A program made the position numbers and the translations under genes. Below the pieces are notes generated by a model. The model was not told where the DNA came from, made no database searches, and saw only the letters and a list, made by a program, of their open reading frames with translations. Source: Cephalothrix simula (Eukaryota > Nemertea > Palaeonemertea > Archinemertea > Cephalotrichidae). From it: DNA of 26,187 nt. Below, one piece after another: positions 1-26,187 of the stretch. The stretch is taken from contig JAXIUW010144447.1 of assembly GCA_035591015.1 (NCBI GenBank), positions 1 to 26,187 on the forward strand. The letters are read 5' to 3'. Position 1 is the first letter of the stretch. Every line of letters begins with the position of its first letter.

Positions 1-135
1 CCATGTAAGTAAGCAAGGCGATGCGCCAAAGTAGCTAGTGTTAGGAGCTCTGCCCCTAACAACCCCGGCAGAGGGCAATGCCCTCTGCACACCCGGACTT
101 GGCCGAAGGCTAACGCCTTCGGCCAAAAGGGTTTG
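1..135 (+). repeat. Multi-hairpin intergenic element, partial copy at window edge
   Basis: This is a host-side copy of the element family found five times inside the prophage further right (15.57-24.82 kb). Two perfect stems are visible: 68-76 pairs with 80-88 (9 bp, loop AAT), and 101-110 pairs with 115-124 (10 bp, loop TAAC). A weaker stem lies near 44-57. Its left end (CCATGTAAGTAAGCAAGG) is, apart from one base, the reverse complement of the right end of the prophage copy at 24.78 kb. This fits a terminal inverted repeat. Only the left module is present; the sequence after about 130 no longer matches the family. It could instead be a static structured repeat of the REP/BIME kind. Confidence 0.75.
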
Positions 136-360
136 GTGTTATATAACTTCAATTAATTAAACATTGCCTATACTTAGACCGAAAGAAGTTTTAGGAGGTT
201 ACTGTTGTTCAAAAGTGTTTTGTAGTATGGCCTTGTAACCAAGAGCAGTCTACAAACCATGATATTCTCTGAACAAATTTGTTGTATCTCAATCCCGTAG
301 CGTCTAAGAAGCGAAAGCACCACTTTGTGCCTCGTTATAAGCCAACAAACTTTAGCTTTA

Positions 361-10478: not shown

Positions 10479-11075
10479 ATGAAATATCTAGCCATCCTAG
10501 TTGTTTTAGTGCTTACCTCATTACCCATCTGGGGTAGTGAAATAGATAGACTACTAAATCTAGCCAGCCGAGGACATGTAGAATCTCAATTTGAATTGGG
10601 CGAGATTTACCGTACTGGAAATGGTGTTGCCCAAGATTATCTAATCGCCGTAAAGTGGTACATTCGTGCTGCTAAAAAAGGTCACCACACCGCCTCAAAT
10701 TATCTACAACAGTGGTACGACAGTGGGGTAGACGCCTACAACGAAGGTGATGATGCGACTGCTCTGCAGCGAATGTTGCTTTTAGCCAAAAATGGTGCGA
10801 CTGATGCCCAGTTTTATGTGGGCATGATATACCACACGACTTTCAGTATAGGCAAACCCTATGATGCCTCAAATTATCAGGAAGCTGTGAAGTGGTACAC
10901 TCTTGCCGGTAATAACGGTCATCGTCAAGCGCAAAACAATCTAGGCATGTTCTATAGGCTGGGAATGACAGGTGTAGAAAAAGACCCAGTGGCCGCTATA
11001 AAGTGGTATCGCATGGCAGCGAAACAGGGTGATGAAGAAGCCCAATATTATTTAAGAGTGCTGACTGGACAATAA
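10479..11075 (+). CDS. Exported Sel1-repeat protein
   Basis: A 198-residue protein from the ATG at 10479, chosen because TTGGAG lies about 6-7 nt before it. A TTG four codons upstream is an alternative. A Sec signal peptide covers about 1-20 (KYLAILVVLVLTSLPIWGS), with cleavage likely before EIDRLL. The mature part consists of Sel1-type (TPR-like) repeats: GHVESQFELGEIYRTGNGV-A with AVKWYIRAAKKGH; a diverged middle repeat (GATDAQFYVGMIY...EAVKWYTLAGNNGH); and RQAQNNLGMFYRLG...AIKWYRMAAKQGDEEAQYYL. Such repeats form alpha-solenoids that mediate protein contacts in the periplasm or at the cell surface; the partner is unknown. It is the last host gene before the prophage. Its stop codon is only 46 nt from the prophage methylase stop. 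Confidence 0.9.
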   Translation: MKYLAILVVLVLTSLPIWGSEIDRLLNLASRGHVESQFELGEIYRTGNGVAQDYLIAVKWYIRAAKKGHHTASNYLQQWYDSGVDAYNEGDDATALQRMLLLAKNGATDAQFYVGMIYHTTFSIGKPYDASNYQEAVKWYTLAGNNGHRQAQNNLGMFYRLGMTGVEKDPVAAIKWYRMAAKQGDEEAQYYLRVLTGQ

Positions 11076-11121
11076 GCCCATCCTTGCAAATTGGCTGGTG
11101 ACACAAACAATTAAATAATCA

Positions 11122-11931: not shown

Positions 11932-11933
11932 GG

Positions 11934-12650: not shown

Positions 12651-12667
12651 GGTCGCTATCTTAGTTA

Positions 12668-13489: not shown

Positions 13490-13492
13490 GGC

Positions 13493-14080
13493 TTACCTCC
13501 TATATTCGTAGATTATGGCCACATTGGCCTGAATGCGCCGGCGCAAGTCGTCTTCAAAAGCAATTGTGTCGGGGTTTGCCGCTCGCAATAATTGTCCGGC
13601 TTTAGCCTGTGAGGCTCTAGCAAAGCTGTTTTGACTATTTGCAATTAACAACCCCAACCAATAGCCGTCGCCACTATTCCATTGACGTTTGGCTAAGAAC
13701 CAATCGTGCTGTTGTAGCCTAAGCTCTAGCCCGTATAACCTAGCAATTGCCTTGATGTCTGCCGCTGAGTTACGATTACCAAGGCCAATTTTAATGGTCA
13801 GCCAAGTACGGCGAAAGGCCTCAGTCCGCCCGCTGTGGTCAACATTAAACACCTGCTCCCAGCGTTCTAGCAGCCCACTTAGAGTTGCATAGCTGGGAGA
13901 AGCCTCATTAGCGGTGGTGGTAATGCTTTTATCCAAGTCAGCTAAAGGGCTAGCTAAGGCATTAAGCAATTTTCTAAGATTAGAGCTTGGCTCATGCGTA
14001 AAGGCTCTGCCCCTCGGTAATAAAGCCGCAAGAGCTTTGCCGTAGTCTTCTGCTGAGCGTGGTGTTAAGAGTTTGGCCAT
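13493..14080 (-). CDS. Baseplate protein, Mu gp48 / YmfQ (DUF2313) family
   Basis: A 195-residue protein with the family opening: LLTPRSAEDYGKALAALLPRGRAFT followed by a LADLDKSI helix and a TLSGLLERWEQVF segment. In Mu and P2 the equivalent proteins (gp48; gpI) sit at the baseplate and link wedge proteins to the tail fibres. The C-terminus contains ARLYGLELRLQ and a short IQANVAIIYEYRR tail. It overlaps the baseplate J gene by 16 nt and has a strong GGAGGT site four nt before its ATG. Its position between J and the fibre agrees with the assignment. Confidence 0.9.
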   Translation of the reverse strand: MAKLLTPRSAEDYGKALAALLPRGRAFTHEPSSNLRKLLNALASPLADLDKSITTTANEASPSYATLSGLLERWEQVFNVDHSGRTEAFRRTWLTIKIGLGNRNSAADIKAIARLYGLELRLQQHDWFLAKRQWNSGDGYWLGLLIANSQNSFARASQAKAGQLLRAANPDTIAFEDDLRRRIQANVAIIYEYRR

Positions 14081-15201
14081 AGTACCTCCACGCTAGCAAT
14101 AGCCTCATCAAAACCTATGATAGGTGCGCCCTCAGGAATAATACTGCCGATGCTGCTCTTAACCCTTAACACCTCAGCAGTAAATGCATGGCTTTCTTCA
14201 CCCGTAGCCGTAGCAATAGCCTCAGCAATCCGGCTATGCGCCATAACTGTCTGCGGAGCAATCTCTACCCGTACTAGTTCATCTAAGGCCGCCTCTACCG
14301 CCTTGCGCACGGCTAAAGTGTCTGGATTGATGCGGGTTATGTTGACTCGCAAAATTAAGCCCTGCAATTGACGAACTACAACAGTGGCACCAACTGGTGC
14401 CTGCGCTTGCAAACTATTTTCTACCTTGCGTAACTTAGTTAACGGCAACAGAATTAACTGATTGCGTGGTTCGGCCACATGCAGCCAAACCTGCCCCGGT
14501 GCAACATGATAAAAGCCTTTACCGGGTAGTTTCTCATAGCGTTCTCCCGCTGCATAAACCCATGCTCGCAAGCCCAATTTGGTGGCTGCATCCAAATAAT
14601 CTTGCTTAGAGCCTATTCCCGGTGGTGCGGTAATGCGCTCCATCAGTCGCAAACGCAATTCTGCGTCAGTTTCGCTGCCGGCTCCATCACTAATTGCTGT
14701 ACTAACCTTAGCTTCAGACACTACGCCGGGCAATGCCCCAACTATCGCTAGGCTAGCACCACGAGAAAGATTACCGCCCTCGCCGCTGTCTTTGGCTTCA
14801 ACTTCAACCTGAGTGGTGAACGCTTGATTATCTTTAAGCAGGCTAACTGTGGCTAAACTCTGATAGCGAGTGCCATCAATCCTCTTCCATTCAGTGCCTT
14901 TGGGTACAACCGTTGCGCTGGCACCAACAACCGTAATCATGCCCCTAGCCTTAACAGGTTCACGGCGTCTTAGTGCCCACAACGCTGCCCAACGCTCTAG
15001 GTACTCACCCTGAGCCGTGTCTGGAAAAAGCTGGCCGTGCATCCAACTCAAATAGCCATAAAGGCTATGGCATAAGCCCGCAAACACCTGCACCAACACA
15101 CCCAACACTGAATAGTGCGGAGCAGGGTCGGCCTCGGGCAAGCTCAAGCGTAGCTGAGCATTAATCTGCTGCTGTAACTCCTCTAAAGTCGGACGCTTCA
15201 T
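14065..15201 (-). CDS. Baseplate J-like protein (Mu gp47)
   Basis: A 378-residue wedge component of the contractile-tail baseplate. The N-terminus (PTLEELQQQINAQL, HYSVLGVLVQVFAGLCHSLYGYLSWM, GEYLERWAALWALRR) is the typical J-family start. The middle carries the SGEGGNLSRGASL segment and SETDAELRLRLMERI near residue 180, followed by a beta-rich part and a C-terminal IAEAIATATGEES stretch. Length is usual for Mu gp47. Its ATG overlaps the gp46 stop (ATGA), and its own 3' end overlaps the gp48-like gene by 16 nt. This is the tightest translational coupling of the operon. Confidence 0.95.
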   Translation of the reverse strand: MKRPTLEELQQQINAQLRLSLPEADPAPHYSVLGVLVQVFAGLCHSLYGYLSWMHGQLFPDTAQGEYLERWAALWALRRREPVKARGMITVVGASATVVPKGTEWKRIDGTRYQSLATVSLLKDNQAFTTQVEVEAKDSGEGGNLSRGASLAIVGALPGVVSEAKVSTAISDGAGSETDAELRLRLMERITAPPGIGSKQDYLDAATKLGLRAWVYAAGERYEKLPGKGFYHVAPGQVWLHVAEPRNQLILLPLTKLRKVENSLQAQAPVGATVVVRQLQGLILRVNITRINPDTLAVRKAVEAALDELVRVEIAPQTVMAHSRIAEAIATATGEESHAFTAEVLRVKSSIGSIIPEGAPIIGFDEAIASVEVLWPNS

Positions 15202-15542
15202 ACTTCTAAATTAAACTGCTGTTCATTACTGCCAATCGTAATAGTGGCTTTCAGAGCATTTTTGCCAATACGCTCTACCTCAACTATTAGCTCTCTATCT
15301 AGCCAACCCAAGGCCTCAACTATAAATGCCTTAGCCCTCTGGCGTGTATGCTGATTCAACGGTTCACCCTCTAACTTATACAAGCGACTGCCTAGCTTTG
15401 GGTCTGCCCACCACTGCCCTTGATTGGTAAATAAGCCCACAATTACCGCTGTCGGCAAACGATTACCCAACACTAAATCGCCACCCTCAATAACTAAATC
15501 TGCTACTGAATTATTCCACCGCAACACTATGTCTTTACTCAT
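15198..15542 (-). CDS. Baseplate wedge protein, Mu gp46 family (gp25/gpW-like)
   Basis: A 114-residue protein. Family marks are DLVIEGGDLVLGNRLPTAVIVGLFT at the start, WWADPKLGSRLYKL in the middle and the AKAFIVEALGWL helix followed by a VEVERIGKNALKATI strand. Members form part of the baseplate wedge next to gp47. An AAGGA site lies about 7 nt before the ATG. The gene is preceded by hairpin element P1, and its stop overlaps the start of gp47. It is shorter than Mu gp46, mainly at the C-terminus. Confidence 0.9.
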   Translation of the reverse strand: MSKDIVLRWNNSVADLVIEGGDLVLGNRLPTAVIVGLFTNQGQWWADPKLGSRLYKLEGEPLNQHTRQRAKAFIVEALGWLDRELIVEVERIGKNALKATITIGSNEQQFNLEV

Positions 15543-15567
15543 ATAATCCTTTTAGATTTGAGGGTCT

Positions 15568-15970
15568 TTGCCCCAGCAAGGCCATGCGCCAAAACATTTA
15601 GTGTCAGGGGTTCCACCCCAGCAAGATGATATAGAATCATCTTGCACCCATGTAAGTAAGCAATGCCATGCGCCAAAACATCTAGTGTCAGGGGTTCCAC
15701 CCCTAACAACCCCGACAGAGGGCAATGCCCTCTGTACTCCCGGACTTAGCCAAAGGCTCACGCCTTCGGCCAAAAGTTTTGTTCCATCACAAGCCCCTTG
15801 CCCGCAGGTATAACCTGCGGGCAGTCATGGGGTGCAGGGGTTAAAACCCCTGCTGGGATTGTTAAGGGCAACGCCCTTAACCCTGCCAACCCCTATAGCA
15901 ACCTTGCTTAGTATAACCCAGCAGGGCAATTCTCTATTGCCCTGCTGGGCAAAGCCCTTAACCAACTAAC
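15568..15970 (+). repeat. Prophage multi-hairpin element P1
   Basis: This element fills the gap between the small ORF (stop at 15988) and gp46 (start 15542). Perfect stems: 15621-15630 with 15636-15645; 15800-15809 with 15813-15822; 15834-15842 with 15845-15853; 15861-15869 with 15873-15881; and a 14-bp stem 15917-15930 with 15936-15949. Its left part carries a repeated segment: the phrase CATGCGCCAAAACAT..AGTG occurs at about 15584 and again at about 15669. The second copy starts after a GCAAGATGAT hairpin. This is the longest and most complete copy of the family, and the only one in which both outer ends seem present. It could be a MITE, a structured RNA leader or both. Confidence 0.85.
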
Positions 15971-15987
15971 TTCTAAAGCATGCCTAT

Positions 15988-16167
15988 TCATGAGATTATG
16001 CCTTTGTGTGTTCCAGCCGATGAGCCACTAGGGATAATAGTTGTACTTTCGGCACTGGTAATAGCCTTTTGAATAGCTTTCGCCAGCAGTTTAGCGGCTT
16101 CGTCTCTGCTTTTAGCTTGTTGGGCGTTTATAATGTCTTGTTTTATAGTTTCTAAATTAGTGGCCAT
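15988..16167 (-). CDS. Small phage protein of 59 residues
   Basis: An open frame of 59 codons plus stop. Its ATG lies 2 nt after the gp45 stop codon, matching the tight packing of the operon. The predicted protein is mainly one long amphipathic helix (about 4-38, Lys/Ala/Glu-rich) followed by a short STTIIPSGSSAGTHKG tail. The helix plus Ser/Gly-Thr tail recalls small accessory proteins that often follow the baseplate spike in Mu-like phages, but I cannot name the family. P1 begins 18 nt past its stop. Confidence 0.6.
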   Translation of the reverse strand: MATNLETIKQDIINAQQAKSRDEAAKLLAKAIQKAITSAESTTIIPSGSSAGTHKGIIS

Positions 16168-16169
16168 AG

Positions 16170-16655
16170 CTAGCTGGTTTTGTGGTTTTCTGAGAGTATC
16201 TCGGCTAATTTCTGTTTAAGTTGATTAAGTGCCATGGCTGCGTCTTCAGCTAGCACCTTACCCATAGTGGTTGGGGCTTGAGCAATCTTAATTGCCTCGT
16301 CAATAATCTGTTCCAGAAGGTTTTTTAGTTGATTGCCCAGCACCTGAGGCTCAGTGGCATCGGGCTTACCTATATGAACTTCCTTGCCCTTTAGCCAAAC
16401 TTGTGCGCCTTTATGGTTATACAAAGCTACATCGCCTTCGTTAAGGTTTTGGGGGCGATGCTCTGGCGCATCAATGGCTATGCAAAGGCGGTCATCCAGC
16501 ACAACGCCTTCACTTTTTGTTGGCGGGCGGCTGTATAATCCATAGTTTTGCAATCGGGTTACTTGGTAAATATAGCCATCAGCCGCTTCAACCTGAACCG
16601 TTTGCAGAGGCGTACTCTCATCGGTGATGTGCAGGGTTATCTCTGTTATCTTCAT
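16170..16655 (-). CDS. Baseplate assembly/central spike protein, Mu gp45 family
   Basis: A 161-residue protein. The core QNYGLYSRPPTKSEGVVL (about 36-53) followed by IAIDAPEHRPQNLNEGDVALYNHKGAQVWLKGKEVHIG is characteristic of the Mu gp45 / gpV spike family. Its N-terminal OB fold caps the hub and its C-terminus forms the membrane-piercing spike. The last 60 residues are helical (EDAAMALNQLKQKLAEIL) rather than beta, so the pointed spike tip is not evident and may be supplied by another protein, perhaps the small ORF that follows. Start overlaps the hub-gene stop (ATGA, 4 nt). Confidence 0.85.
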   Translation of the reverse strand: MKITEITLHITDESTPLQTVQVEAADGYIYQVTRLQNYGLYSRPPTKSEGVVLDDRLCIAIDAPEHRPQNLNEGDVALYNHKGAQVWLKGKEVHIGKPDATEPQVLGNQLKNLLEQIIDEAIKIAQAPTTMGKVLAEDAAMALNQLKQKLAEILSENHKTS

Positions 16656-17698
16656 GCGGTTTTGCGTCCAAATATATTAGTTTGCTCAGGCTCTATCTCC
16701 GGCAAGGCAACTTGCCACACTTCTGGCGGATTGCAGCGCAATTCTGTGCGCAGTCCCTGCTCATCTAAAGTTTGGCTAACCTCGCTAATCAGTAGCACGC
16801 TGTTTAGCCCTAATGACGGCGAGTGCACCTCTACCAGCTGTTGCGGTGCCCATAAACCGTCTAAATGTTGCCACCCTTTAACGCTAAGCATAGCTACTTG
16901 GCCGTTGGCACGGGCTACGTTGCATTCCCACTGCACCCGTTGTTTAAGCTCTGCTGTTGAAGACTGTGGCAGACTAACGTACCAACGCTTATTAACTTGC
17001 TCTACGTCTTTATCAAAAACTACTGCGGCCTTGGGTGCGGTTTTGTTGCCAAAAATATGCTCACCCTCGGCAAAGGCAAAGGCATGGTAAGAATGAAACC
17101 GTTCTAAAACACTGCTGCGGTAATTAATAGCCAGCAGATTTTCACCCTCAACCAAAGCCGTACCTACAGACTTAGCTGATAGCTTGGGTTGAGTTAGGCT
17201 AATATGGCCTAGCCCATCATGTACGGGTATGCGGTCACGCTCACGGCAGGCACGTTGTAAGGCTGCAAAAGGTGTTTCTTCACGACCAAATGTGAACTGA
17301 CTGAAGGGTTGGCTGGCATCGCCAACTACCAAACTACTTAGCCCGAAGGGCTGGCAAATTTCTTCAGCTAGCTCTGCTAGCAGTATGTTCTTGCGCTGAG
17401 CCGCACCACGGGGCAATTGGCTTTCTAACAACGGTGCAGCTACATCACGCCCACGAATCATTAGCAGTTGTTCAGTGGCTGTTATGTTAACCTCTACTTC
17501 ATCTATATAGCCGTTAATTAGCATGGCATCATTAAACCAAATCTCGACTGGCTGACTAGCCTTAATCAAGGGTATTTCTGGCTGATGCGGCATCGTTAAT
17601 TCAAAGGCAGAGCATAGCTGGTCTAAGCTGCGCTCTATAAGCACTTTAGTCCATCGCCCATAGGCATAATCTTTGGTTCTTAACTCAATCTGCATCAT
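16652..17698 (-). CDS. Baseplate hub protein, Mu gpP (gp44) family
   Basis: A 348-residue hub of the baseplate, equivalent to Mu gpP / P2 gpD, which docks the central spike to the tail tube. Typical features: the early YGRWTKVLIERSLDQLCSAFELTM segment, INGYIDEVEVNITATEQLLMIRGRD (about 60-84), CQPFGLSSLVVGD and the ETPFAALQRACRERDRIP helix. It starts with two adjacent ATGs (17698 and 17695); AGGA abuts the first, so the second, MQIEL, gives slightly better spacing and may be the true start. P2 lies immediately upstream, ending about 40 nt before the ATG. Confidence 0.9.
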   Translation of the reverse strand: MMQIELRTKDYAYGRWTKVLIERSLDQLCSAFELTMPHQPEIPLIKASQPVEIWFNDAMLINGYIDEVEVNITATEQLLMIRGRDVAAPLLESQLPRGAAQRKNILLAELAEEICQPFGLSSLVVGDASQPFSQFTFGREETPFAALQRACRERDRIPVHDGLGHISLTQPKLSAKSVGTALVEGENLLAINYRSSVLERFHSYHAFAFAEGEHIFGNKTAPKAAVVFDKDVEQVNKRWYVSLPQSSTAELKQRVQWECNVARANGQVAMLSVKGWQHLDGLWAPQQLVEVHSPSLGLNSVLLISEVSQTLDEQGLRTELRCNPPEVWQVALPEIEPEQTNIFGRKTA

Positions 17699-17743
17699 TC
17701 CTAAGTATTTCTATGTTAGAGTGTTTTATCTCTAACAGTTTTG

Positions 17744-17960
17744 TTTGCAGGGGCTTCGCCCCCGCACCCCCAGCAGAGGGCACAGCCCTCTGCACACCCA
17801 AACTTGGCCAAAGTCAAGCCTTCGGCCAAAAATTTTGTTCTATCACAAGCCCCTTGCCCGCAGGTATAACCTGCGGGCAGTCATGGGGTGCAGGGGTTAA
17901 AACCCCTGCTGATATTGTTAAGGGCAACGCCCTTAACCAACTAAACTCCAAAGCAACCTT
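17744..17960 (+). repeat. Prophage multi-hairpin element P2
   Basis: This element lies between the gpN gene (stop at 17966) and the gpP hub gene. It shows stems built from GCAGGGGC/GCCCCCGC, GCAGAGGGC/GCCCTCTGC (loop ACA), CCCGCAGGT/ACCTGCGGG, GCAGGGGTT/AACCCCTGC and TTAAGGGC/GCCCTTAA. It lacks the left end found in P1 and stops at AAGCAACCTT, five nt before the gpN stop codon. One stem has TGATATTG where other copies have TGGGATTG just outside it. Orientation is the same as P1. Confidence 0.85.
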
Positions 17961-17965
17961 ATTAA

Positions 17966-19078
17966 TCATCGTTCTAGTATGTACAGGGGTTGTTCAACAA
18001 ACAGAGGGTGTGGCACTCCGTTACCGCTTAATATTTCTGCATCACGGCTAGCTTGCCCATAAAGATCATGCGCTAAAACTACTGCTGGTAAGGCTTGTTG
18101 AGGTTGATAGAGGCTCGTACCCGGCAAACCTTGGGCACGTTCGTTAAGAGCCACATAAACTGCGGTTTGTAACCTGTAGATGTGTTGCTGTAGTATGTCA
18201 GAAGCCTCTTCAGACAGCGCATTAAATTGGCTGTGCAACCCGGCTTTAACCTCTGCCACAGCTGCCTGCGAAGCATAGGGTGCTTCTACAGCTACCACTG
18301 CGGCCTTGTTTAACGCTCCGCGGCGCAATAAATTGCCTAGGGCTTGGTTGTTGGCAAGGTTTCGGCTAAAGCCCTTATCTGGTGGAGGCATAACATCAGG
18401 CTTTTGCATAATAACCTTGTACAGCTCTAGCGCACGCAGGGGTTCTTTAACCATGGTGCTAATGCGGTTCAAACTGCCAACAATAGAGGCTGCTAAATTA
18501 GCTGGCATCCGAATTAATTTGGCAATGGGGCTAGTGATGCGTCCGATTTGACGCTCTACATCAGCTAAAACTTCATCTATGGCGGTCTCTATAACATCAA
18601 TCATGGCCGCTAAATCGTCAAATCCACCTATAAAATCCTCAAGTAGGCTCTGTTCCATAGCCAAGGCGGCATCTTTAACGGCTTGATTAGGCAATCCACG
18701 GCGTGCTTCAGGCAGGCTTTTGGCTGGCCGAAAACTTACTTGAAAGGTGGCCATGCCCAGTTGTTCGGCATCTTCTCTAAGTGTCCAACTATCTACATGG
18801 GCATTAAAGGGCGTCATCAAGGGCAAAATCAATTCTGCCGCACCAAAGGCATCTAGTGCTTGGCGCAAACTATCACTTTGAATAAGGTAGTCATCACCCA
18901 AAACTAAGCACTCTACACGACCGCTCCAAGCCTTTCTGCCAAGGTCATCTATGGCGTAATCATCATGCAGAGGGTACTCATAAACGGCCAAGCGTCGCCC
19001 GCCGCTAATTGAGTTGCCCCTTACAAAAAAAGGCACACCCCTAAAGGATGCTGGTTGTAATTCGTCTTTCCAGCTCAT
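17966..19078 (-). CDS. Tail/DNA circularization protein N (Mu gpN) family
   Basis: A 370-residue protein with the DNA_circ_N opening: SWKDELQPASFRGVPFFVRG, GRRLAVYEYPLHDDYAIDDLGR and LGDDYLIQSDSLRQALDAFG, all near the N-terminus. Mu gpN is needed for tail assembly and forms part of the baseplate ring next to the hub; the circularization name comes from older work in other phages. The C-terminal half is helical and less conserved. Its ATG overlaps the tape-measure stop by 4 nt. P2 begins immediately after its stop. Confidence 0.92.
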   Translation of the reverse strand: MSWKDELQPASFRGVPFFVRGNSISGGRRLAVYEYPLHDDYAIDDLGRKAWSGRVECLVLGDDYLIQSDSLRQALDAFGAAELILPLMTPFNAHVDSWTLREDAEQLGMATFQVSFRPAKSLPEARRGLPNQAVKDAALAMEQSLLEDFIGGFDDLAAMIDVIETAIDEVLADVERQIGRITSPIAKLIRMPANLAASIVGSLNRISTMVKEPLRALELYKVIMQKPDVMPPPDKGFSRNLANNQALGNLLRRGALNKAAVVAVEAPYASQAAVAEVKAGLHSQFNALSEEASDILQQHIYRLQTAVYVALNERAQGLPGTSLYQPQQALPAVVLAHDLYGQASRDAEILSGNGVPHPLFVEQPLYILER

Positions 19079-20667
19079 TGCGCTCCCGTTTGCAGCAATC
19101 CTCTGTTAACGTTAATCTTCGCTCCGCTTGCGCTGGCGGCTTTAGCCTGTGCGCCTTCGGGCAGGTTTTCAAAAGTGATAGTGATATTGCTCTGCGAGTT
19201 AAGTGCTTTTAGCAATGGATTATTTAGGTGCTGATTGATAAACTCGCCCTGCTCTTCTAGTCTTTTCTGTTTTGCTTCTACTCGCTGTTGCCGCTGTGCT
19301 TCTGTTTCAGGCTCGGTGTAGTCAAATGCCGTAGCTGCACTCCCTCCACCTACTAGCAGTGCCCCGGCTAAGCCCAAAAGTGTTGCTGCGGTATATCCCA
19401 CGTTAACTCCGGGTATGAACAATGGTGCTGCAGCGGCTAATACCCCGCCTACAGTTGCTCCACCTAAACCTCTGGTAATAGCGTTCTCGGCATTTTCATC
19501 ACTTTGTCGGCTAACAACCTGAGCTATTTCTTGCAATGGTGGTACTACTTTAGCCTCTAACGCATTAGTCATCTTATCGGTGGCACTTTCTACTTGCGAC
19601 AGTGCTGTGGCGGCTATAGTCGCTGAATCCTGTTTTAAGGTTTCGCCATCACCTTCCACCGCCATAAATGGGGCGTATACATCTACAGAATCAGGGTCTT
19701 TACCCTCTTGCTTGGCCTTCTGCCGTTTACCGGTGGCGTAATTGATTGCCCGAATGGCCTCGGCACCAAAAATCTGGCTTAGCACTTCGGTCATAGGTGC
19801 TGGGGCTTCATCGGCGGCTTTGATGATTTCTTGCAGAAGGTCTGGCACTGCACGCAACGTTTCGCCATCTTGCTCATAAACATTAATGCCAGCCTGCTTG
19901 AGCATCTCTAGTTTCTTGGCGTCGCTGAGCGTGGCAAAAATATTCTCAAGGGCTGTGGTCGCTTGCTCGGCACTACCCGCACCCATTCGAGCAATTTGCG
20001 CCAAAGCTCCTAGCTCTCGCACTGCCTCTAGCCCACTACGACCCGTAGCTGCATAGGCTGGCAACAGCCGACCACCTAAGCGAGCAAACTGTTGCATGGT
20101 AAAGGCTCCAGCCTTGCCTTGCTTGGTTAGCATGTCTAGCGCAGGCAAAATATCTGTAATGCCCATTTTTTGAAACTCGGCTACGATACCGCCAATATCA
20201 AAGCCCGTCGCTCCAGTCGCTGAAATCGTCATACCAATCGCCTCAAGATTATTTTTGGCAAACTCTAAATCACCGGTGCGCTCAACAATTTCTTCTACAG
20301 CAGAGACCATTTGCTCACTATCAACCTTAATATGCCCCATCTCGGCAGTCTCTTTAATTTGTTCATACAATGCGCCAATCTCTGCGCTAGAGGCCTCGGC
20401 CGCTACGCCCAAATAGGCTAAGCGTCGTTCTATATTCATAGCACCCTTAATCATCTGCGCAGCACCATAAGCACCAAGCATGCCCGCTCCAGCGGCTCCT
20501 AACCTAACTGCTGCTGACTTACCCCAAGTCTTACCCAATGAGGCCAACGAAGTTTTTAGCCTTTTCCCTTGCTCATTAAGACTGCCCATCTGCCTACGCA
20601 CCTTATCTAAGGTGTTTGAGGCACGGTCACGGGCAGTTAGCTCTAAACCAGCTTTAAGTGTAGTCAT
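19075..20667 (-). CDS. Tail tape measure protein
   Basis: A 530-residue tape measure protein, which sets tail length and fills the tube lumen. It opens with the TP901-like LKAGLELTARDRASNTLDKVRRQMGSL. This is followed by a conserved helical core (MIKGAMNIERRLAYLGVAAEAS, then GFDIGGIVAEFQKMG and LRAVPDLLQEIIKA near residue 270), a Gly/Ala-rich hydrophobic stretch (about 400-445, two transmembrane-like segments) and a charged end. Using the usual rule of about 0.15 nm per residue, the tail would be near 80 nm (inference). GAGG lies upstream of the ATG, and element P3 starts about 16 nt before it. Its 3' end overlaps gpN. Confidence 0.93.
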   Translation of the reverse strand: MTTLKAGLELTARDRASNTLDKVRRQMGSLNEQGKRLKTSLASLGKTWGKSAAVRLGAAGAGMLGAYGAAQMIKGAMNIERRLAYLGVAAEASSAEIGALYEQIKETAEMGHIKVDSEQMVSAVEEIVERTGDLEFAKNNLEAIGMTISATGATGFDIGGIVAEFQKMGITDILPALDMLTKQGKAGAFTMQQFARLGGRLLPAYAATGRSGLEAVRELGALAQIARMGAGSAEQATTALENIFATLSDAKKLEMLKQAGINVYEQDGETLRAVPDLLQEIIKAADEAPAPMTEVLSQIFGAEAIRAINYATGKRQKAKQEGKDPDSVDVYAPFMAVEGDGETLKQDSATIAATALSQVESATDKMTNALEAKVVPPLQEIAQVVSRQSDENAENAITRGLGGATVGGVLAAAAPLFIPGVNVGYTAATLLGLAGALLVGGGSAATAFDYTEPETEAQRQQRVEAKQKRLEEQGEFINQHLNNPLLKALNSQSNITITFENLPEGAQAKAASASGAKINVNRGLLQTGAQ

Positions 20668-20683
20668 CTTATTAACCTCGCTC

Positions 20684-21003
20684 CAAAATACTTAGTGTTA
20701 GGGGCAATGCCCCAGCAAGATGATAGATAATCATCTTGCCCGGTTGCGAAAGCAAGACAATGCTTCAAAATACTTAGTGTTAGGGGCTCTGCCCCTAACG
20801 ACCCCGACAGAGGGCAATGCCCTCTGTACTCCCGGACTTGGCCAAAGGCAAAGCCTTTGGCCAAAAGGCATAGATAAATTAAACCCAAAGAGCGCACCAG
20901 CCCACAGGGCTGCATGCGCTGGCCGTAGGCCATCTTGGGGTTGCAAGGGGATTGTATCCCCTTGCTGGGATTGTTAAGGGCAACGCCCTTAACATAAAGC
21001 AAC
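20684..21003 (+). repeat. Prophage multi-hairpin element P3
   Basis: This element lies between the gp41 frameshift extension (stop 21004-21006) and the tape measure gene. It carries the same nested start as P1: CAAAATACTTAGTGT occurs at about 20685 and again at about 20766, with a GCAAGATGAT hairpin between. The left terminal sequence CGGTTGCGAAAGCAAG at 20739 is the exact reverse complement of the right terminal sequence of P4 at 21565. Its right module differs from P1, P2 and P4: it has AGCGCACCAGCCCACAGGGC and GCAAGGGGAT..ATCCCCTTGC instead of the CCCGCAGGT stem. P5 shares this variant. Confidence 0.85.
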
Positions 21004-21117
21004 CTAATCTGTCCAAAAGCGCAGTTCATCGGCGGTTAGTTTTGTTAACTCTTGCAGTGATGAGCCTCTTAGCAGACTCAATCGTTTTGGCCAGTCTGTT
21101 GGCCATTTTGAAAAAAA
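21004..21117 (-). CDS. GpE-like frameshift extension of gp41 (35 codons)
   Basis: In the -1 frame relative to gp41, an open stretch runs from the slippery site to a TAG at 21004-21006. It encodes a short WPTDWPKRLSLLRGSSLQEL-type segment ending TADELRFWTD. The tryptophan/proline start and the acidic ELxxW end look like the GpE / tail-chaperone C-terminal segment of P2- and Mu-like phages. It has no start codon or ribosome binding site of its own. The predicted shifted product has about 115 residues (80 from gp41 plus 35). Frameshifted chaperones load the tape measure for tube assembly; the tape measure gene follows. Confidence 0.7.
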   Translation of the reverse strand, partial: FFSKWPTDWPKRLSLLRGSSLQELTKLTADELRFWTD

Positions 21118-21350
21118 GGGTCTTGCGTAATGCTTTCAAAGTCTTTCATATCAAGCCGCTCTACATCTGCGGGTAACAGGCCACTTTGCCGTGAAAAAAT
21201 CAGCAGTGTTTCTTCGCTAGGGCTAACTTTGGCTAGAGAGGCGGCCTTGAGGTCGCCCACGGTGCTGCGACGCATAGAGATAGTCTCAAGCCACTGGCCA
21301 TCGGTGCTTTCAAACGGAAACTGCAACTTGAATGTTTTTCTGCTATCCAT
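21078..21350 (-). CDS. Phage tail assembly chaperone, Mu gp41 family
   Basis: A 90-residue protein located between tail tube and tape measure, the conserved place of the tail chaperone pair. It has the family pattern: a short strand region (RKTFKLQFPFE), TVGDLKAA, a helix with LLIFSRQSGLLPADVERLDMKDFESI and a DPFFQNG end. A T-TTT-TTT heptamer lies ten codons before the stop and gives a -1 shift to a GpE-like tail. The ATG has only a weak upstream purine run (GAAAG). P4 lies just upstream. Confidence 0.85.
   Translation of the reverse strand: MDSRKTFKLQFPFESTDGQWLETISMRRSTVGDLKAASLAKVSPSEETLLIFSRQSGLLPADVERLDMKDFESITQDPFFQNGQQTGQND
21111..21117 (-). promoter_or_regulatory. Probable -1 programmed frameshift site (T TTT TTT)
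   Basis: Seven consecutive T on the coding strand lie in the register X-XXY-YYZ relative to gp41 (CC[T] [TTT] [TTT] CAA). Slippage by one base moves ribosomes to the frame of the GpE-like extension. Such sites are the rule in the tail-chaperone pairs of long-tailed phages; the heptamer and the extension are both directly visible. Confidence 0.7.
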
Positions 21351-21386
21351 AATCTATTGCTTTCAGTTAAACTTTTTTGTGCCAAA

Positions 21387-21622
21387 GCTCCCTGCACCCA
21401 CTGACTTGACCAAAGGCTTAGCCTTTGGTCAAAAGTTTTGTTCTATCGCAAGCCCCTTGCCCGCAGGTATAACCTGCGGGCAGTCATGGGGTGCAGGGGC
21501 TAAAGCCCCTGCTGGGGTCGTTAGGGGCAAAGCCCCTGACATTGCTAAACCCCAAGAGCAATCTTGCTTTCGCAACCGAGCGGAGCAATTCTCTATTGCC
21601 CTGCTGGGCAACGCCCTTAATG
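21387..21622 (+). repeat. Prophage multi-hairpin element P4 (left-truncated)
   Basis: This element lies between the tail tube gene (stop 21630) and gp41. It starts abruptly at GCTCCCTGCACCCACTGACT, the right arm of a stem whose left arm is present in P5 but absent here, so its left end is truncated. Further right are stems CCAAAGGC/GCCTTTGG, CCCGCAGGT/ACCTGCGGG, GCAGGGGCT/AGCCCCTGC, then TTAGGGGC/GCCCCTGA and an outer ATTGCCCTG-type arm. The right end CTTGCTTTCGCAACCG pairs with the left end of P3. Same orientation as the other copies. Confidence 0.85.
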
Positions 21623-21629
21623 CTAAATA

Positions 21630-21986
21630 TCACAGTTCTTCAGCGGGCGTTGATTGAAACTTCAAAGATACCTTGCCGCCTTCTCCAGCATTCACTTTGG
21701 GCGGTTCAGTGAGCCAAGCGTTTTTCATAATCCATATTTTGCCGATGTCGGTTTCAAACTGAATGGTTACGGCTGAGGCTTGGCGCAAGGCTTCTAACTC
21801 GGTTTGGTGGCTAACTGAAATCTCGCATTCTAGCTCTGATTCCTTAGGTTTTTCGGCGTAGCCAAGCACTTTGTTAGAGCCTATAATCGTCTCACGTTCA
21901 ACGCCACCCAGTAGCAAAGAGGCTCCAGAGTTAGTAGCTAAAATGGTTCCATCAACGCTGATGGTGGCTTTTCCTAATAGTTGCAT
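21630..21986 (-). CDS. Phage tail tube protein (Mu gpM family)
   Basis: A 118-residue tail tube subunit. The predicted beta-rich fold and the typical start (GKATISVDGTILATNSGASLLLGG) followed by GYAEKPKESELECEISV (about 42-58) and a TIQFETDIGKIWIMKNAW strand pair support the call. The C-terminus NAGEGGKVSLKFQSTPAEEL matches the family. A strong GGAGG site lies about 8 nt before the ATG, fitting a high-level structural protein. It follows the sheath by 12 nt. P4 begins a few nt after its stop. Confidence 0.9.
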   Translation of the reverse strand: MQLLGKATISVDGTILATNSGASLLLGGVERETIIGSNKVLGYAEKPKESELECEISVSHQTELEALRQASAVTIQFETDIGKIWIMKNAWLTEPPKVNAGEGGKVSLKFQSTPAEEL

Positions 21987-21998
21987 GTTACTACCTCC

Positions 21999-23129
21999 TT
22001 ACAGTCTAAATTGAACTTGCGCTGCCAATACTCTAAAGCCGTTGATTATATCTGGCGGAATAACAGCATTTATTCTAGATGGATTATTCTGATCACGCTC
22101 AACCAGTAGGTCTTGCTTAAATTGGTCTAGGTTTTCAACTAATCCTTGCTCTTCCCATTCTCTAGCAAGGGCTAAAAACTCACCTCGCAAAATATTCGGG
22201 GTTACTATAGCCTGCCCCGGAGCAATGGTTGTTCCGCTAGCCGCCAGCTTATGCCGTGGAAACTTTTGCAGTACTCGTGCTCTTAACGAAAAACGCAAAT
22301 ACGCCAAGGTGCGCATGGTGGTTAGGTCTTGATAGCTGGCATCAGGTAAACCCTGCGGGTTGGTTGTGTATGTAGTCACTAAGCGTTCAATGCGGGCTGT
22401 GCCACCGGCATCTACGGTGTAGGTGCTGATGCCCTTCTGTAAGAGCCGATTGCGCTCATCACGGCTAACCCCAAAACCTTCTTGGGGCGGGTTCACGCCG
22501 ATTAAGGCTAGTGTTTGGCGTGGGCGTGCTGGGTCGGCTTGTCTAGCATCTACTCCAGCTACTGCTGCAGCCCAAAGCTCTGGATTATCATTGGTTAAGC
22601 CAGCACCAATTATGGTTAAGTGCGGGCTGTTGATGCCCTCTATAGCCTTGGTCATCTCGGTAATAGTGCCTTTTACAGCGCAAAAGGCGTGGCCTTCATT
22701 TTGGTCTAGTGGTCCCCAACGCTTATCAAGCTCGGTTAAAATCGGCTTCAAAAAGGCTTGATTAGTCGTCGGCAAAACAATGGTATTAAACTGCTCAGAG
22801 GCCATAGACTTAACTATTCCCTCGGCCAGTTTTTTAAGAGCATCACTAGTGCCGCTAAGGCTAGCTATAGCCAGCCCCCACACCTCAAGCCCGCCGCCTA
22901 AGGCTGTGTGCATTTCTGCAAGCTGACTATCTGCGCCAAAGGCTTGGGTTGCTTGCTTAATGTTTGGCAAATAGGTTAGCTCATTTTCTTTGGCTGTGCC
23001 GCCTGTCTTGGTGCCAACAAGCAGCACTCTATGGCGTTGATTGGCCGTTCCTGCACGAGAATTATCAAACTCTACAAACACGCCGGGTGTACTGAGGTTG
23101 ATGGGAATACTATTAAAACTTATCGCCAT
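21999..23129 (-). CDS. Contractile tail sheath protein (Mu gpL family)
   Basis: A 376-residue sheath subunit. The opening SFNSIPINLSTPGVFVEFDNSRAG, a VLLVGTKTGGTA segment and the later WRAG-free PDASYQDLTTMRTLAYLRFSLRAR helix in the C-terminal domain are characteristic, as is the VERDQNNPSRINAVIPPDIINGF end. It is shorter than Mu gpL (about 495 residues) and nearer P2 gpFI in length, so an extra surface domain is missing. It starts 2 nt after the gp37 stop. The gp38-like small gene that sits between gp37 and the sheath in Mu is absent. Confidence 0.95.
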   Translation of the reverse strand: MAISFNSIPINLSTPGVFVEFDNSRAGTANQRHRVLLVGTKTGGTAKENELTYLPNIKQATQAFGADSQLAEMHTALGGGLEVWGLAIASLSGTSDALKKLAEGIVKSMASEQFNTIVLPTTNQAFLKPILTELDKRWGPLDQNEGHAFCAVKGTITEMTKAIEGINSPHLTIIGAGLTNDNPELWAAAVAGVDARQADPARPRQTLALIGVNPPQEGFGVSRDERNRLLQKGISTYTVDAGGTARIERLVTTYTTNPQGLPDASYQDLTTMRTLAYLRFSLRARVLQKFPRHKLAASGTTIAPGQAIVTPNILRGEFLALAREWEEQGLVENLDQFKQDLLVERDQNNPSRINAVIPPDIINGFRVLAAQVQFRL

Positions 23130-23131
23130 AA

Positions 23132-23632
23132 TTAGTTCTGGTTAAGGTTAATTGAAACTTCGGTTTGCATTTGTGTAGGGTTAACAACGTTAATATTTTT
23201 TAGCTCTTTTAAGTCAGTTTCAGGGCTAATTTTAGCCGCCTGCGCAAAGGTTACCGCCCACAAGGCTACGCCTTTGCCCTTTAAGTCTGATGTATGAAGG
23301 TTCTCAGCTCGTAAATCTTGAGGCGGTAAGGCCGCATAGTCCCAGCGGTTATCCGTAGCGCATAAAAACACCGCTGCCGCTAACTGTTGTGCTTCTTCAT
23401 CACGCTTAGCTCCTGACCCTATGCAGAAGATTGCCCATTTGGCCAATACTTCGGTCATCGCAATTTGCGTTGGCTCTAACCCCAAGCAACTAACCAACAC
23501 CGTGCCAGACTGAGTGCTGATGGTTTTGATGTCTTGGGCGCTAAATCGTCCACTATAGCCTCGGCACTTTTTAATTGGTTTTAGCTTGCCAAGCACTTGC
23601 TCAATGTTTTTTTGCCAATTAACTAAGCTCAT
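23132..23632 (-). CDS. Mu gp37-like tail terminator family protein
   Basis: With the ATG at 23632 the protein has 166 residues. This start is preferred to the TTG seven codons upstream because it gives an ATGA overlap with the gpG-like stop. It begins SLVNWQKNIEQVLGKLK and contains a RGYSGRFSAQDIKTIS turn and a VLVSCLGLEP strand, then AKWAIFCIGSGAKRDEEAQQLAAAVF. This layout resembles the Mu gp37 (DUF1834) group placed between head-connector genes and the sheath, with a tail-terminator role proposed for that position. The motif support is moderate; position is the stronger argument. Confidence 0.7.
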   Translation of the reverse strand: MSLVNWQKNIEQVLGKLKPIKKCRGYSGRFSAQDIKTISTQSGTVLVSCLGLEPTQIAMTEVLAKWAIFCIGSGAKRDEEAQQLAAAVFLCATDNRWDYAALPPQDLRAENLHTSDLKGKGVALWAVTFAQAAKISPETDLKELKNINVVNPTQMQTEVSINLNQN

Positions 23633-24081
23633 CTCAGCCCCTTCTCTAGCCAATCCTTAACCACCGCAGCAATATCACTAGAATTAGCAGCCGATAAACC
23701 CAAATATGGTCTAGCTGGAATAGACATGCCCACCTCATCTCCACCAAACTGATGAATAGCCGCATAAATTAAATTACTACCCACTTCCACTTTATCGCCT
23801 TGAACCTTATAGTGAATTGAATCCAGCAGATCACCTTCGCCCTCAAGCAAACTATGTCCGCTCTGCCTAGTCTGTGCGTAGTTATCAGACCACTCATCCC
23901 AAGCCCTGCCATCTGGGCTTTCCTTTTCTTCTATAATGCGCCGCCTAGTCTGGCTCTCCACCTTACTGCCAATCTTATCTAGCAGTGTGTTCAAATTGCG
24001 CATCTTCTGAAGACTCTTTTTCAAATCTTTTTCTAAGGCCAAGGCCTCGTTAAGATTAATGCTCATCGCTACGCCAGCCAT
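23629..24081 (-). CDS. Virion morphogenesis protein, gpG-like
   Basis: Starting at the ATG at 24081 (preceded by AGAGGA, and 2 nt after the gp36 stop), the protein has 150 residues; an earlier in-frame ATG would overlap gp36. The sequence LLDKIGSKVESQTRRRIIEEKESPDGRAWDEWS and the later DLLDSIHYKV, AIHQFGG and IPARPYLGLS motifs are typical of the phage virion-morphogenesis (Mu gpG / tail completion) family, which acts at the head-tail junction. In Mu, gpG is encoded before the protease; here the gene lies between gp36 and gp37. Confidence 0.88.
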   Translation of the reverse strand: MAGVAMSINLNEALALEKDLKKSLQKMRNLNTLLDKIGSKVESQTRRRIIEEKESPDGRAWDEWSDNYAQTRQSGHSLLEGEGDLLDSIHYKVQGDKVEVGSNLIYAAIHQFGGDEVGMSIPARPYLGLSAANSSDIAAVVKDWLEKGLR

Positions 24082-24082
24082 A

Positions 24083-24445
24083 CTAAAATCCTCTGCGTGG
24101 TTGTGATTGAAAATAAACCTTGCCATGGCTAGGCTGGCTACCAATAGTCGTTTTGCCGTTCATAGCCTCACGCAGCCACGCCCGAGCATCCTTAGCACGC
24201 TGGGCTAACTCATCGGTCAATGCCTCATGCCCCTGCGCCAAGCGATAACAAGCCAAGTCAACGCAAAAGCCCTTAACCACTGGCGGCCTAGTAGCTCCCT
24301 TAGGCAAATAACTGTCAATCTCAGCCGTGGCATGCTCTAAAGCAGCCTTAATGGCCGCAGAAGCCTCGGCCTTGTTCTCAGATACTAAGCCAGCCAAAAA
24401 CTCCGCACCGTATATCGTCTCTATGTCTAACCTAGTTGCGTACAT
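24083..24445 (-). CDS. Mu gp36-like head-tail connector protein (DUF1320)
   Basis: A 120-residue protein with the DUF1320 pattern: ATRLDIETIYG at the start, ALEHATAEIDSYLPKG (about 35-50) and VDLACYRLAQGHEALTDELAQRAKDARAWLREAMNGK. Its position after the major capsid gene matches Mu gp36, a probable head completion or connector protein. AAGGAG lies 7-8 nt before the ATG, just downstream of element P5. Confidence 0.9.
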   Translation of the reverse strand: MYATRLDIETIYGAEFLAGLVSENKAEASAAIKAALEHATAEIDSYLPKGATRPPVVKGFCVDLACYRLAQGHEALTDELAQRAKDARAWLREAMNGKTTIGSQPSHGKVYFQSQPRRGF

Positions 24446-24462
24446 GCTCTATGCTCCTTATA

Positions 24463-24820
24463 TTGGGGGCGTCGCCCCCAATGCCCCCGTCTGTATACTT
24501 GAGAGGCCTTTGCTCGGCCGTGAAAGCAAGGCTATCGCCAAAACACTTGGTGTCAGGGGCTCTGCCCCTAACGACCCCGGCAGGGAGCAATGCTCCCTGC
24601 ACCCACTGACTTGACCAAAGGCTTTGCCTTTGGTTAAAAGGGGCTTAAGTTCACTAATAGCGCACCAGCCCACAGGGCTGCATGCGCTGGCCGTTAGGCC
24701 ATCCCGGGGTGCAGGGGCTAAAGCCCCTGCTGGGATTGTTAAGGGCAAAGCCCTTAACCTAAAACATTCCATACTTAACCTTGCTTACTTGCATGGGTGC
24801 AAGGCAATTCTCTATAGCCT
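24463..24820 (+). repeat. Prophage multi-hairpin element P5
   Basis: This element fills the gap between gp36 and the major capsid gene. A perfect TTGGGGGCG/CGCCCCCAA stem opens it (24463-24481). Next come GGGGC/GCCCC, CAGGGAGC/GCTCCCTG, CCAAAGGC/GCCTTTGG, the AGCGCACCAGCCCACAGGGC variant module also found in P3, GCAGGGGCT/AGCCCCTGC and TTAAGGGC/GCCCTTAA. The right end (CCTTGCTTACTTGCATGG) reverse-complements the left end of the host copy at 1-18 except one base. The element runs into the capsid stop codon (24819-24821). Confidence 0.85.
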
Positions 24821-25694
24821 ATATCCACGGTACTATGGCTAGTTCTACGGCGTCTTTATTCACATTGGTTGACCCATCTTGCAGGCGTTCGGCCTTAATC
24901 ACTTCTAGTGCTGCACCTCTAAGGCTGGGGCCAACCACTAATAGCGACGGCCTAATGCCTAGTGGGTTGCCTTCATCATTTTTAAGGCTCAGCATGCTTT
25001 CCATGGCCTTATTAAAATTATCTTTATTAAGCGTGGCCTTGCTAGCATATGCCTGCTGCCAAAATCCATAGCCTACGTTGCATCTGGCGTCTACGCCGTA
25101 ACGATATTCAGCACGCATAAACACGCTCTCGTTTTCACCTGTGGTTACTTTTTCTAGTGCGTATTCTTTGCGTTTCTGAAAGATAATTGGCTTCAAAGCT
25201 CGGGTTGTATCAAGTAAAAACCACGGCGCACCCTTACCATCTTGCCTATTTGAGGCTATGTCTCCCCCAACTGGGTGATTGTTGGCAAAGTACGCCTTGC
25301 CGTCGTAGCACTTTTTCTTATAGCCATCTTTAAGCAGGTTAAAAATCAGCTCATCAGGGTGCCGTTTGGCAGCGTGCCCCATCTCTTTGAATAGTGGACC
25401 GTAAACGCCATAGCTATCATCTTCAATGTTGTCTTTACTGACTGCAATTGTTGATTCGTACTTCTTATTCAAAATGCTGTAGTTATGGGCTGAAAGCTCT
25501 TTTAGGTGGCGGTCTCCCACCCACTCACGCAGATTTGGAAACTGCCCTAGCCAAGTGTATTGCTCTTGAGCCGTTTTAGATTTAACTTGGGTGGCAATTT
25601 TCTCCCAGTACGTTTCGGTAGATTGAAAGCCCTTTTGAAAGGCTTTTTGAAAGCCTGTGTATAAGGCACTCATAGTTTGCGGATTTATAATCAT
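24819..25694 (-). CDS. Major capsid protein (Mu gpT family)
   Basis: A 291-residue major head subunit, HK97-fold family of Mu gpT. It opens NPQTMSALYTGFQKAFQKGF, followed by KIATQVKSKTAQEQYTWLGQFPNLREWVGDR and the conserved YSILNKKYESTIAVSKDNIEDDSYGVY, then KCYDGKAYFANNHPVGG and the C-terminal IRPSLLVVGPSLRGAALEVIKAE. It is slightly shorter than Mu gpT (305) and ends ELAIVPWI at a TAG where element P5 begins, so the last residues could have been altered by that insertion. AAAGG lies about 8 nt upstream of the ATG. It follows the cement gene by 14 nt. Confidence 0.95.
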   Translation of the reverse strand: MIINPQTMSALYTGFQKAFQKGFQSTETYWEKIATQVKSKTAQEQYTWLGQFPNLREWVGDRHLKELSAHNYSILNKKYESTIAVSKDNIEDDSYGVYGPLFKEMGHAAKRHPDELIFNLLKDGYKKKCYDGKAYFANNHPVGGDIASNRQDGKGAPWFLLDTTRALKPIIFQKRKEYALEKVTTGENESVFMRAEYRYGVDARCNVGYGFWQQAYASKATLNKDNFNKAMESMLSLKNDEGNPLGIRPSLLVVGPSLRGAALEVIKAERLQDGSTNVNKDAVELAIVPWI

Positions 25695-25708
25695 AATCTT
25701 TGCCTTTG

Positions 25709-26116
25709 TTAAGCGTTAAAAGTTATCCATGCACCGCCATCATCAATGGCGAACACCTTGCCAGCTATTGATGCGCCGGCTTTGGTTTTGGTGACTGTTT
25801 GGTCATCTAGTGCGTAGCAGTCTTTACCAACTTCAGCCTGATTAACTGCATCAGCTCCCGAGGCGTTATTAAACAAAAAAGCACCATCGCTTCTAACAGC
25901 AATAGTCTGCTCTCCATCTACAGCCCCGCCCATCGCCTGACCTTGGGCACAGCCAACAATGGTTAAGCCTTCTTTTTTTGTAGCCGGCACGGCTAGGCCT
26001 TTGTCATTCAAAGCCACTAATGCACCTTGGTAGATTTTTGCATCTTTGGCCACAGGCAAGTTACGGCTAGAAGCCTCACGGCGGGTGGCAGGTCGTGATT
26101 GAGTAAGTGCGCTCAT
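25709..26116 (-). CDS. Capsid cement/decoration protein (DUF2190-like)
   Basis: A 135-residue protein between the protease/scaffold gene and the major capsid gene. It has an extended N-terminus and then a beta-rich domain: KIYQGALVALNDKGLAVPA, VGCAQGQ, GEQTIAVRSDGAFLFNN and EVGKDCYALDDQTVTKTK, ending AGKVFAIDDGGAWITF. This layout is common in Mu-like phages at this locus, where the protein probably decorates or glues capsid subunits. Its ATG overlaps the preceding stop by one base (TAATG). Confidence 0.8.
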   Translation of the reverse strand: MSALTQSRPATRREASSRNLPVAKDAKIYQGALVALNDKGLAVPATKKEGLTIVGCAQGQAMGGAVDGEQTIAVRSDGAFLFNNASGADAVNQAEVGKDCYALDDQTVTKTKAGASIAGKVFAIDDGGAWITFNA

Positions 26117-26187
26117 TAGTTATCCTTTGGTTGAGGGTTTTGGCCAACGCCCAGCATTTCAAAAACTTCTTTTTGCTGTGGACTAAC
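26116..26187 (-). CDS. C-terminal end of Mu gpI-like protease/scaffold protein (cut by window edge)
   Basis: Twenty-three codons plus a TAA are visible, with the gene continuing past the right edge. The peptide reads SPQQKEVFEMLGVGQNPQP in outline, like the end of Mu-type protease/scaffold proteins, which usually finish with an xPEQxxVxxxLGV helix. The stop overlaps the cement ATG. The assignment rests on this short tail and on position. Confidence 0.6.
   Translation of the reverse strand, partial: VSPQQKEVFEMLGVGQNPQPKDN

Follow-up and report, generated by a model that had tools for sequence, protein, structure and literature searches.

Hairpin repeats of host type that probably spread between gene junctions in the late operon of a Mu-like prophage

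Most descriptions of extragenic palindromic repeats concern chromosomes. REPINs, which are mobilized by RAYT proteins, consist of two palindromic arms in inverted orientation that flank a core. According to PMC3733652, repetitive extragenic palindromes (REP), bacterial interspersed mosaic elements (BIME) and GTAG/CGTC palindrome dimers are extragenic, reside between tandem and convergent genes near gene 3' ends and often form heterodimers. Neisserial intergenic mosaic elements (NIME) are composed of dRS3 repeats of 20 bp and RS units of 30-160 bp (PMC3898611). Here, we describe contig C121 (26,187 bp, analyzed over its entire length and termed the window in the following) from an assembly of 8.6 Mb in 580 contigs. 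It carries the late operon of a Mu-like prophage, five gene junctions of which are occupied by one hairpin family (P1 to P5, Table 1). We consider it probable that these are compact BIME-like host repeats that spread within the late operon, a case in which a family of host type colonized the structural operon of a phage and in which apparent diversification into private forms makes spread between known positions traceable inside one operon. The material is a single assembly with genes called by a simple codon-usage script and with no near relative of either host or prophage. Among the papers listed by searches of an open-access library for REP/BIME, for palindromic and prophage repeats and for phage late-gene terminators, none described such a family in a phage operon.

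Late genes in the window follow the order known from Mu and its relatives. The gaps at P1 to P5 amount to 445, 267, 336, 279 and 373 nt and are all filled by the hairpin family; the remaining late-gene junctions overlap or are 2-17 nt wide and none of them contains a family member. One further junction measures 38 nt with the start chosen by the script for N and is overlapping with a longer ATG start. The script itself prints 674 nt for P5, where a gp36-like open reading frame was dropped, and 410 nt for P3, where a frameshift extension was not modelled. Same-strand alignment scores between different elements range from 111 to 320, whereas 30 mononucleotide shuffles each reached no more than 32-53. 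Gap sizes and scores bear out the original prediction that these five late junctions, and no others, carry a single hairpin family. P3 does not directly follow gp41; the stop before it belongs to the frameshift frame of gp41, which appears to be extended at a run of seven T (mRNA sense; 21004-21125) to a TAG stop at 21004-21006. The distance from the stop codon to the first stem of at least 6 bp is 38, 28, 9, 18 and 15 nt for P1 to P5, such that the predicted spacing of about 20 nt applies to three elements and is exceeded at P1 and P2. A Shine-Dalgarno-like sequence before the next start, thought to be intact throughout, is clear at P1, P3 and P5, doubtful at P2 and not evident at P4.

P5 can be aligned to its own reverse complement along almost its full length. 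A covariance model (R1) trained on 15 units, all from other contigs, gave 16 matches in the window, of which eleven were counted as units, namely the copy at 1-129 and one plus-strand unit followed by one minus-strand unit in each of P1 to P5; the other five are weak, overlapping or situated within another repeat. Each prophage element is thus an inverted pair of three-hairpin units (-> <-), a build that permits P3 and P4 to align better on opposite strands (135) than on the same strand (111). A tree of the 11 window units and 36 others suggests two arm classes, L and R. Profiles built exclusively from units outside C121 (14 L and 19 R, three units of loci L050 and L051 being left out as unclear) assign the left arms of P1 to P5 to L and the right arms to R, the right arm of P4 marginally so (50 versus 46 bits). 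Each element is a polar heterodimer, near-symmetric in build, with L left and R right in five of five. The notion that all elements read left to right therefore holds for this polarity, including the marginal case of P4, and fails in so far as every element contains two units on opposite strands. The arms are about 120 nt long with several hairpins, and some contain sub-repeats spaced 84 nt apart. A homodimer reading, with two like arms and no polarity, was dropped because tree and class profiles separate L from R. Rfam 15 gave no match above gathering score in the window.

A DNA search of the assembly detected at least 133 matching places on 17 contigs, C121 included and several at contig ends, a lower bound (40 of 56 candidates scored) in which a single hairpin is sometimes counted on both strands. 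Many contigs end in or near repeat copies (C1, C19, C20, C47, C121, C175, C302, C326, C549, C563 and others). The repeat probably breaks the assembly, and the true copy number is probably higher. The examined loci outside C121 contain 75 mapped units without mutual overlap. Not one of 86 unit midpoints in the window and on other contigs lies inside a predicted gene, in agreement with the predicted absence of insertions from coding DNA, and the outermost unit of a gap faces the interior of that gap at 29 of 34 stop codons and 10 of 11 starts, 39 of 45 gene edges in total. Adjacent unit pairs on other contigs (n = 43) are arranged as -> <- in 14 cases, -> -> in 10, <- <- in 14 and <- -> in five. 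Among gaps of at least 150 nt, a unit of at least 40 bits is present in six of the 11 between convergent genes, five of the 23 between tandem genes and one of the 18 between divergent genes (Fisher tests: convergent versus divergent, p = 0.006; convergent plus tandem versus divergent, p = 0.039). These occupancy figures are biased upward because the loci were picked for carrying the repeat. Dense occupation of gaps is not special to the prophage since three of four gaps of at least 150 nt contain units on contig C98, which was covered in full. Nine of ten neighbouring proteins scanned match Pfam and belong to ordinary cellular families (HisG, PRA-CH, aminoacyl-tRNA synthetases, Cpn10).

Inward L/R pairs on other contigs (weaker arm at least 38 bits, n = 10) have L left in four and R left in six cases; an eleventh pair with an L arm of 30 bits (locus L029) would give five and six, and the count leaves aside outward pairs and the L/L pair of L035. 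Where the upstream gene end is one-sided, L is nearer to the stop in three loci (L041 at 2420-2824, L044 and L050 at 8791-9101) and R in two (L049 and L052), the ambiguous L039 being left out. In the prophage it is the R arm that is nearer to the upstream stop in all five elements. On other contigs, units thus lie outside genes and mostly behind stop codons, and both polarities occur. Beyond the assembly, the exact d-hairpin pattern of the element was not found in viral_contigs, the element was not found by a search of plasmids, and a phage database gave one match only, with 13% of the query covered (E 9e-3).

Like REP/BIME in PMC3733652, the family is dispersed and extragenic, occurs in opposite-orientation pairs that are often heterodimers with variable spacers, and prefers tandem and convergent gene pairs and gene 3' ends. 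Many dispersed extragenic copies exist here and opposite-orientation pairs make up five of five prophage elements, in support of the earlier classification as REP/BIME-like in kind. The arms of about 120 nt with several hairpins differ from the single palindrome of 20-40 nt in REP. Furthermore, a conserved GTAG/CGTC tag was not found (GTAG in one of 14 L and none of 19 R units, CGTC likewise in one of 14 and none of 19), nor was a Y1 transposase match (PF01797) in the assembly. The family is laid out like REP/BIME dimers yet is not assigned as a REP family, because its arms are long and multi-hairpin, a conserved tag is lacking and no Y1 transposase was found. With REPINs it shares the inverted pair of palindromic arms flanking a core; it differs from them in far longer arms, in the 84-nt sub-repeats of some arms and in that no RAYT-type match was found in the assembly. 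NIME are likewise intergenic repeat mosaics in arrays hundreds of bases long, with dRS3 and RS as their building blocks (PMC3898611).

On other contigs, a central module separates the arms of inward pairs. The R-side hairpin of this module is present in 21 places of the assembly at up to three mismatches, none of them in C121, and profiles of the module halves match other loci, that of the L-side half also window positions 130-200, and none of the five prophage elements. P1, P2 and P4 have a common 59-nt core (57-58 of 59 positions identical), and a second core is common to P3 and P5 (58 of 64 aligned positions identical). The core hairpins yield three and two matches in the assembly at up to three mismatches, all inside this prophage, and neither core was found in the examined loci of other contigs. 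Compared without gaps, P1 and P2 are 90-100% identical between -40 and +80 relative to the core, a value that drops to 15-55% in other 20-nt blocks, with a contribution from indels. In contrast to the cores, the arms are often nearest to units on other contigs in the tree. Since private cores are shared three and two ways, P1 to P5 are, to judge from sequence comparison, probably copies or recombinants of one or two founders and not five independent insertions. Independent insertion of host elements, with a single orientation by chance or through insertion polarity, agrees with the wide dispersal of the family in the assembly but is very improbable given these cores, which were not found elsewhere in the assembly, and the mixed polarity on other contigs. 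Uniform polarity would then follow from descent and selection would not be required. Orientation as a sign of selection has thereby lost most of its weight, as the polarities elsewhere are four versus six, five of five corresponds to p = 0.0625, and one or two founders would suffice.

Spread within the late operon would have started from a BIME-like mosaic repeat dispersed in the host, an inverted heterodimer (L -> ... <- R) with two arms of about 120 nt and two to three hairpins each. The prophage late operon would have gained one or two such elements, and copies would then have moved from junction to junction via recombination or gene conversion between elements or via some mobilizing activity. 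The shared private cores suggest that polarity and core were kept during this process. Survival would have been restricted to positions between genes, as an insertion in a structural gene would be lost. The spread itself would require no function: a recombining or mobile repeat may simply persist only where it is intergenic.

Comparison with Mu-like relatives covered 12 phage or prophage loci with identities to this prophage of about 51% or less, and a search with R1 did not find the repeat in any of them. The M-41 junction measures 0-9 nt in Mu, B23, SfV, YPCBV-1 and Pmp9, genes 45 and 46 overlap or abut in Mu, B23, SfV and YPCBV-1, and N and P overlap in Mu, SfV and YPCBV-1 and are 142 nt apart in B23. 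In a Stenotrophomonas relative (L031), both N-P and 45-46 overlap. With the exception of N-P in B23, the elements thus appear to make up most of the gap at P1, P2 and P4. Between the annotated gp41 and the tape measure gene, Mu, B23, SfV and Pmp9 have a gap of 107-144 nt that probably includes the frameshift extension. Without the elements, gaps thus exist in Mu-like relatives before the tape measure gene and behind the capsid gene, with little or no gap at the other three junctions (B23 again excepted at P2). The statement that every sizeable gap is occupied turns out to be largely circular because the elements themselves make the gaps.

The capsid junction was examined in 10 of the 12 relatives, the capsid gene not being found in L031 and L054; the gap borders of L056 and L057 were taken from our own list of open reading frames. 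The gap 3' of the capsid gene measures 52-138 nt in nine relatives and 23 nt in L057. In six of the ten (Mu, B23, SfV, YPCBV-1, Pmp9 and L056; loci L053, L055, L056, L058, L059 and L062) it contains an unrelated perfect stem of at least 9 bp (9-12 bp), as compared to 0-3% of control windows in the same loci. Such a stem was not found behind the capsid gene of JBD24, JBD25, L057 and ZX4290, the fold of the ZX4290 gap featuring a 10-bp stem with a loop longer than the loop limit of the search. Hairpins in the relatives are not confined to the capsid junction because other gaps fold too: ten further gaps of at least 40 nt in five relatives gave z values from -3.7 to +1.0, the strongest being L-M of YPCBV-1 and N-P of B23. 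A short gap with a stem behind the major head gene is possibly a general phage feature. The hairpins of Mu, B23, SfV, YPCBV-1, Pmp9 and the IMG/VR locus L056 reside in the same position as P5, but they number one or two in 52-80 nt, while P5 comprises 373 nt with eight stems and four further junctions are occupied in this prophage. The recurrence of unrelated capsid hairpins in Mu-like phages renders the idea that intercistronic hairpins set capsid-to-tail ratios directly testable in phage Mu.

Folding of the mRNA strand of the elements is strong, with z from -6.6 to -9.7 (60 shuffles) and -0.45 to -0.51 kcal/mol per nt, as compared to a value of -0.29 for 45 windows from other parts of the prophage region. 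In late mRNA, each element is predicted to form a very stable hairpin array 9-38 nt after a stop codon. By analogy with intercistronic REP, the arrays would retard 3' exonucleases and loosen the coupling of downstream to upstream expression, the expected outcome being a protected upstream part of the mRNA and lower downstream expression. At the capsid junction, P5 would replace the single hairpin kept by six of ten relatives. The REP between malE and malF reportedly stabilizes the upstream transcript and reduces the downstream one. On this analogy mRNA punctuation, perhaps incidental, is plausible. According to PMC12306157, ribosomes can stall at REPs that lie no more than 15 nt from a stop codon, a range into which P3 (9 nt) and P5 (15 nt) would fall.

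It is a step further to regard P1 to P5 as a selected punctuation system, derived from a domesticated host repeat, that sets the ratios of capsid, tube, tape measure and baseplate by end protection upstream and lowered read-through. We regard this as a minor possibility. It is consistent with the folding of the mRNA strand, with the location of elements after capsid and tube, with the unrelated stems behind the capsid gene of relatives, which are so rare in control windows, and with the position of other contigs' units, likewise behind stop codons. Unit stems moreover keep pairing despite changes: in L-unit stems, pairing is kept through double changes at five pairs and in 23 cells, as compared to 2.9 and 8.2 in shuffles, and this covariation among related copies is suggestive and hence short of proof. 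Template switching can maintain perfect palindromes as well. Against selected punctuation speak the absence or near absence of a gap in relatives at M-41, N-P (B23 with 142 nt excepted) and 45-46, the presence of the same family behind ordinary host genes and the shared private cores, which indicate recent copying. The punctuation role proposed originally thus finds partial support at the capsid junction, and no such support at the other four. A fuller version, in which a phage lineage domesticated a host hairpin repeat as modular mRNA punctuation, its compact private form replacing an ancestral capsid hairpin and then reaching four more junctions as copies with unchanged core and polarity so as to tune late-gene stoichiometry, is unlikely.

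Several points weigh against spread of host repeats within the operon. Insertion of the elements would be deduced from relatives that are about 51% identical or less and not from a near-identical empty site. Given the capsid hairpin in six of ten relatives, P5 may be selected rather than a passenger. The further pair types in the L-unit stems (8 versus 10.3 in shuffles) deviate in the direction opposite to the double changes, and the strand opposite to the mRNA folds about equally strongly (z -7.3 to -11.9), so that stability does not argue for one strand over the other. At +120 to +160, P1 and P4 regain a similarity of 85-95%, and the copied tract is thus not simply the core. As to a mobilizing enzyme, PF01797 had no match in the possibly incomplete assembly, with 5 of 14 controls positive; PF05201 was found in the assembly by the same type of search, showing that the method works here. 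Finally, the prophage could alternatively have imported the compact form from another host lineage.

That the elements act as transcription terminators or attenuators of the late operon appears distinctly improbable, although a putative terminator is annotated behind the capsid gene of SfV and a scan of window positions 11000-26187 finds 32 terminator-like sites as compared to 17.5 expected. Only four of these 32 lie inside elements, three of them on the plus strand, against the genes, and the sole minus-strand site (20869-20853) is of the short-stem kind. Apart from this site, an intrinsic terminator signature, i.e., a GC-rich stem and a U-tract on the transcribed strand, was not found across the five elements, and five strong terminators in a single operon would shut down the distal baseplate genes. 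Palindromic sites in a single orientation behind several genes are also reminiscent of integron-like attC sites or gene-cassette borders. This interpretation is scarcely conceivable as the integron integrase TIGR02249 and PF00589 both have zero matches in the assembly, the affected genes form a phage structural operon and copies on other contigs adjoin cellular genes, e.g., for HisG, a class II tRNA synthetase and Cpn10.

Table 1. Positions of the hairpin elements, their parts and relevant genes in the window
Feature	Position	Strand	Location	Parts or family
P1	15543..15987		between small open reading frame (15988-16167) and gp46	extra left half-unit; L unit 15648-15776 (+); core 15777-15835, overlapping R unit 15796-15919 (-)
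P2	17699..17965		between N (17966-19078) and P (16652-17698)	L unit 17707-17832 (+); core 17833-17891; R unit 17852-17974 (-), model match 9 nt into N
P3	20668..21003		between gp41 frameshift frame (stop 21004-21006) and tape measure gene	L unit 20740-20867 (+); core 20868-20938; R unit 20917-21032 (-), model match extends beyond stop
P4	21351..21629		between tube M (21630-21986) and gp41 (21078-21350)	truncated L unit 21342-21435 (+), match 9 nt into gp41; core 21436-21494; R unit 21455-21579 (-)
P5	24446..24818		between capsid T (24819-25694) and gp36-like gene (24083-24445)	L unit 24514-24640 (+); core 24641-24712; R unit 24686-24796 (-)
Chromosomal-type copy outside prophage	1..200	+	contig end	L unit 1-129, then L-side half of central module 130-200
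DNA methyltransferase gene	11122-11931		prophage left end	phrog_56
Tail gene, gp41-like	21078..21350	-		phrog_166
Tail tube gene M	21630..21986	-	upstream of P4	phrog_185
Major head protein gene T	24819..25694	-	upstream of P5	phrog_371, E 2.1e-119

Sixteen of 18 window proteins scanned (11122-26116) match head, connector or tail PHROGs; the remaining two are a DNA methyltransferase and a protein (16170-16655) with a weak match to a family of unknown function. The sequence left of about 11.1 kb appears to be host and encodes glutamyl-tRNA reductase and ClpB. These host genes (2703-6614) have identities of at most 41% for glutamyl-tRNA reductase and at most 59% for ClpB among the matches listed, which fall into mixed taxonomic groups; the low identities suggest a deep or fast-evolving lineage. 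The lack of any Phage_integrase (PF00589) match in the 8.6-Mb assembly, with 14 of 14 control genomes positive, would be unusual for a complete bacterial chromosome. A second repeat family is found at 361-1470, with copies of 209 nt (361-569 and 939-1147, 95% alike) and of 148 nt (596-743 and 1209-1356, 94%); a further copy, in inverted orientation, occupies 10116-10205 (91%). Judged by eye, a piece resembling this second family sits within the element of locus L034.

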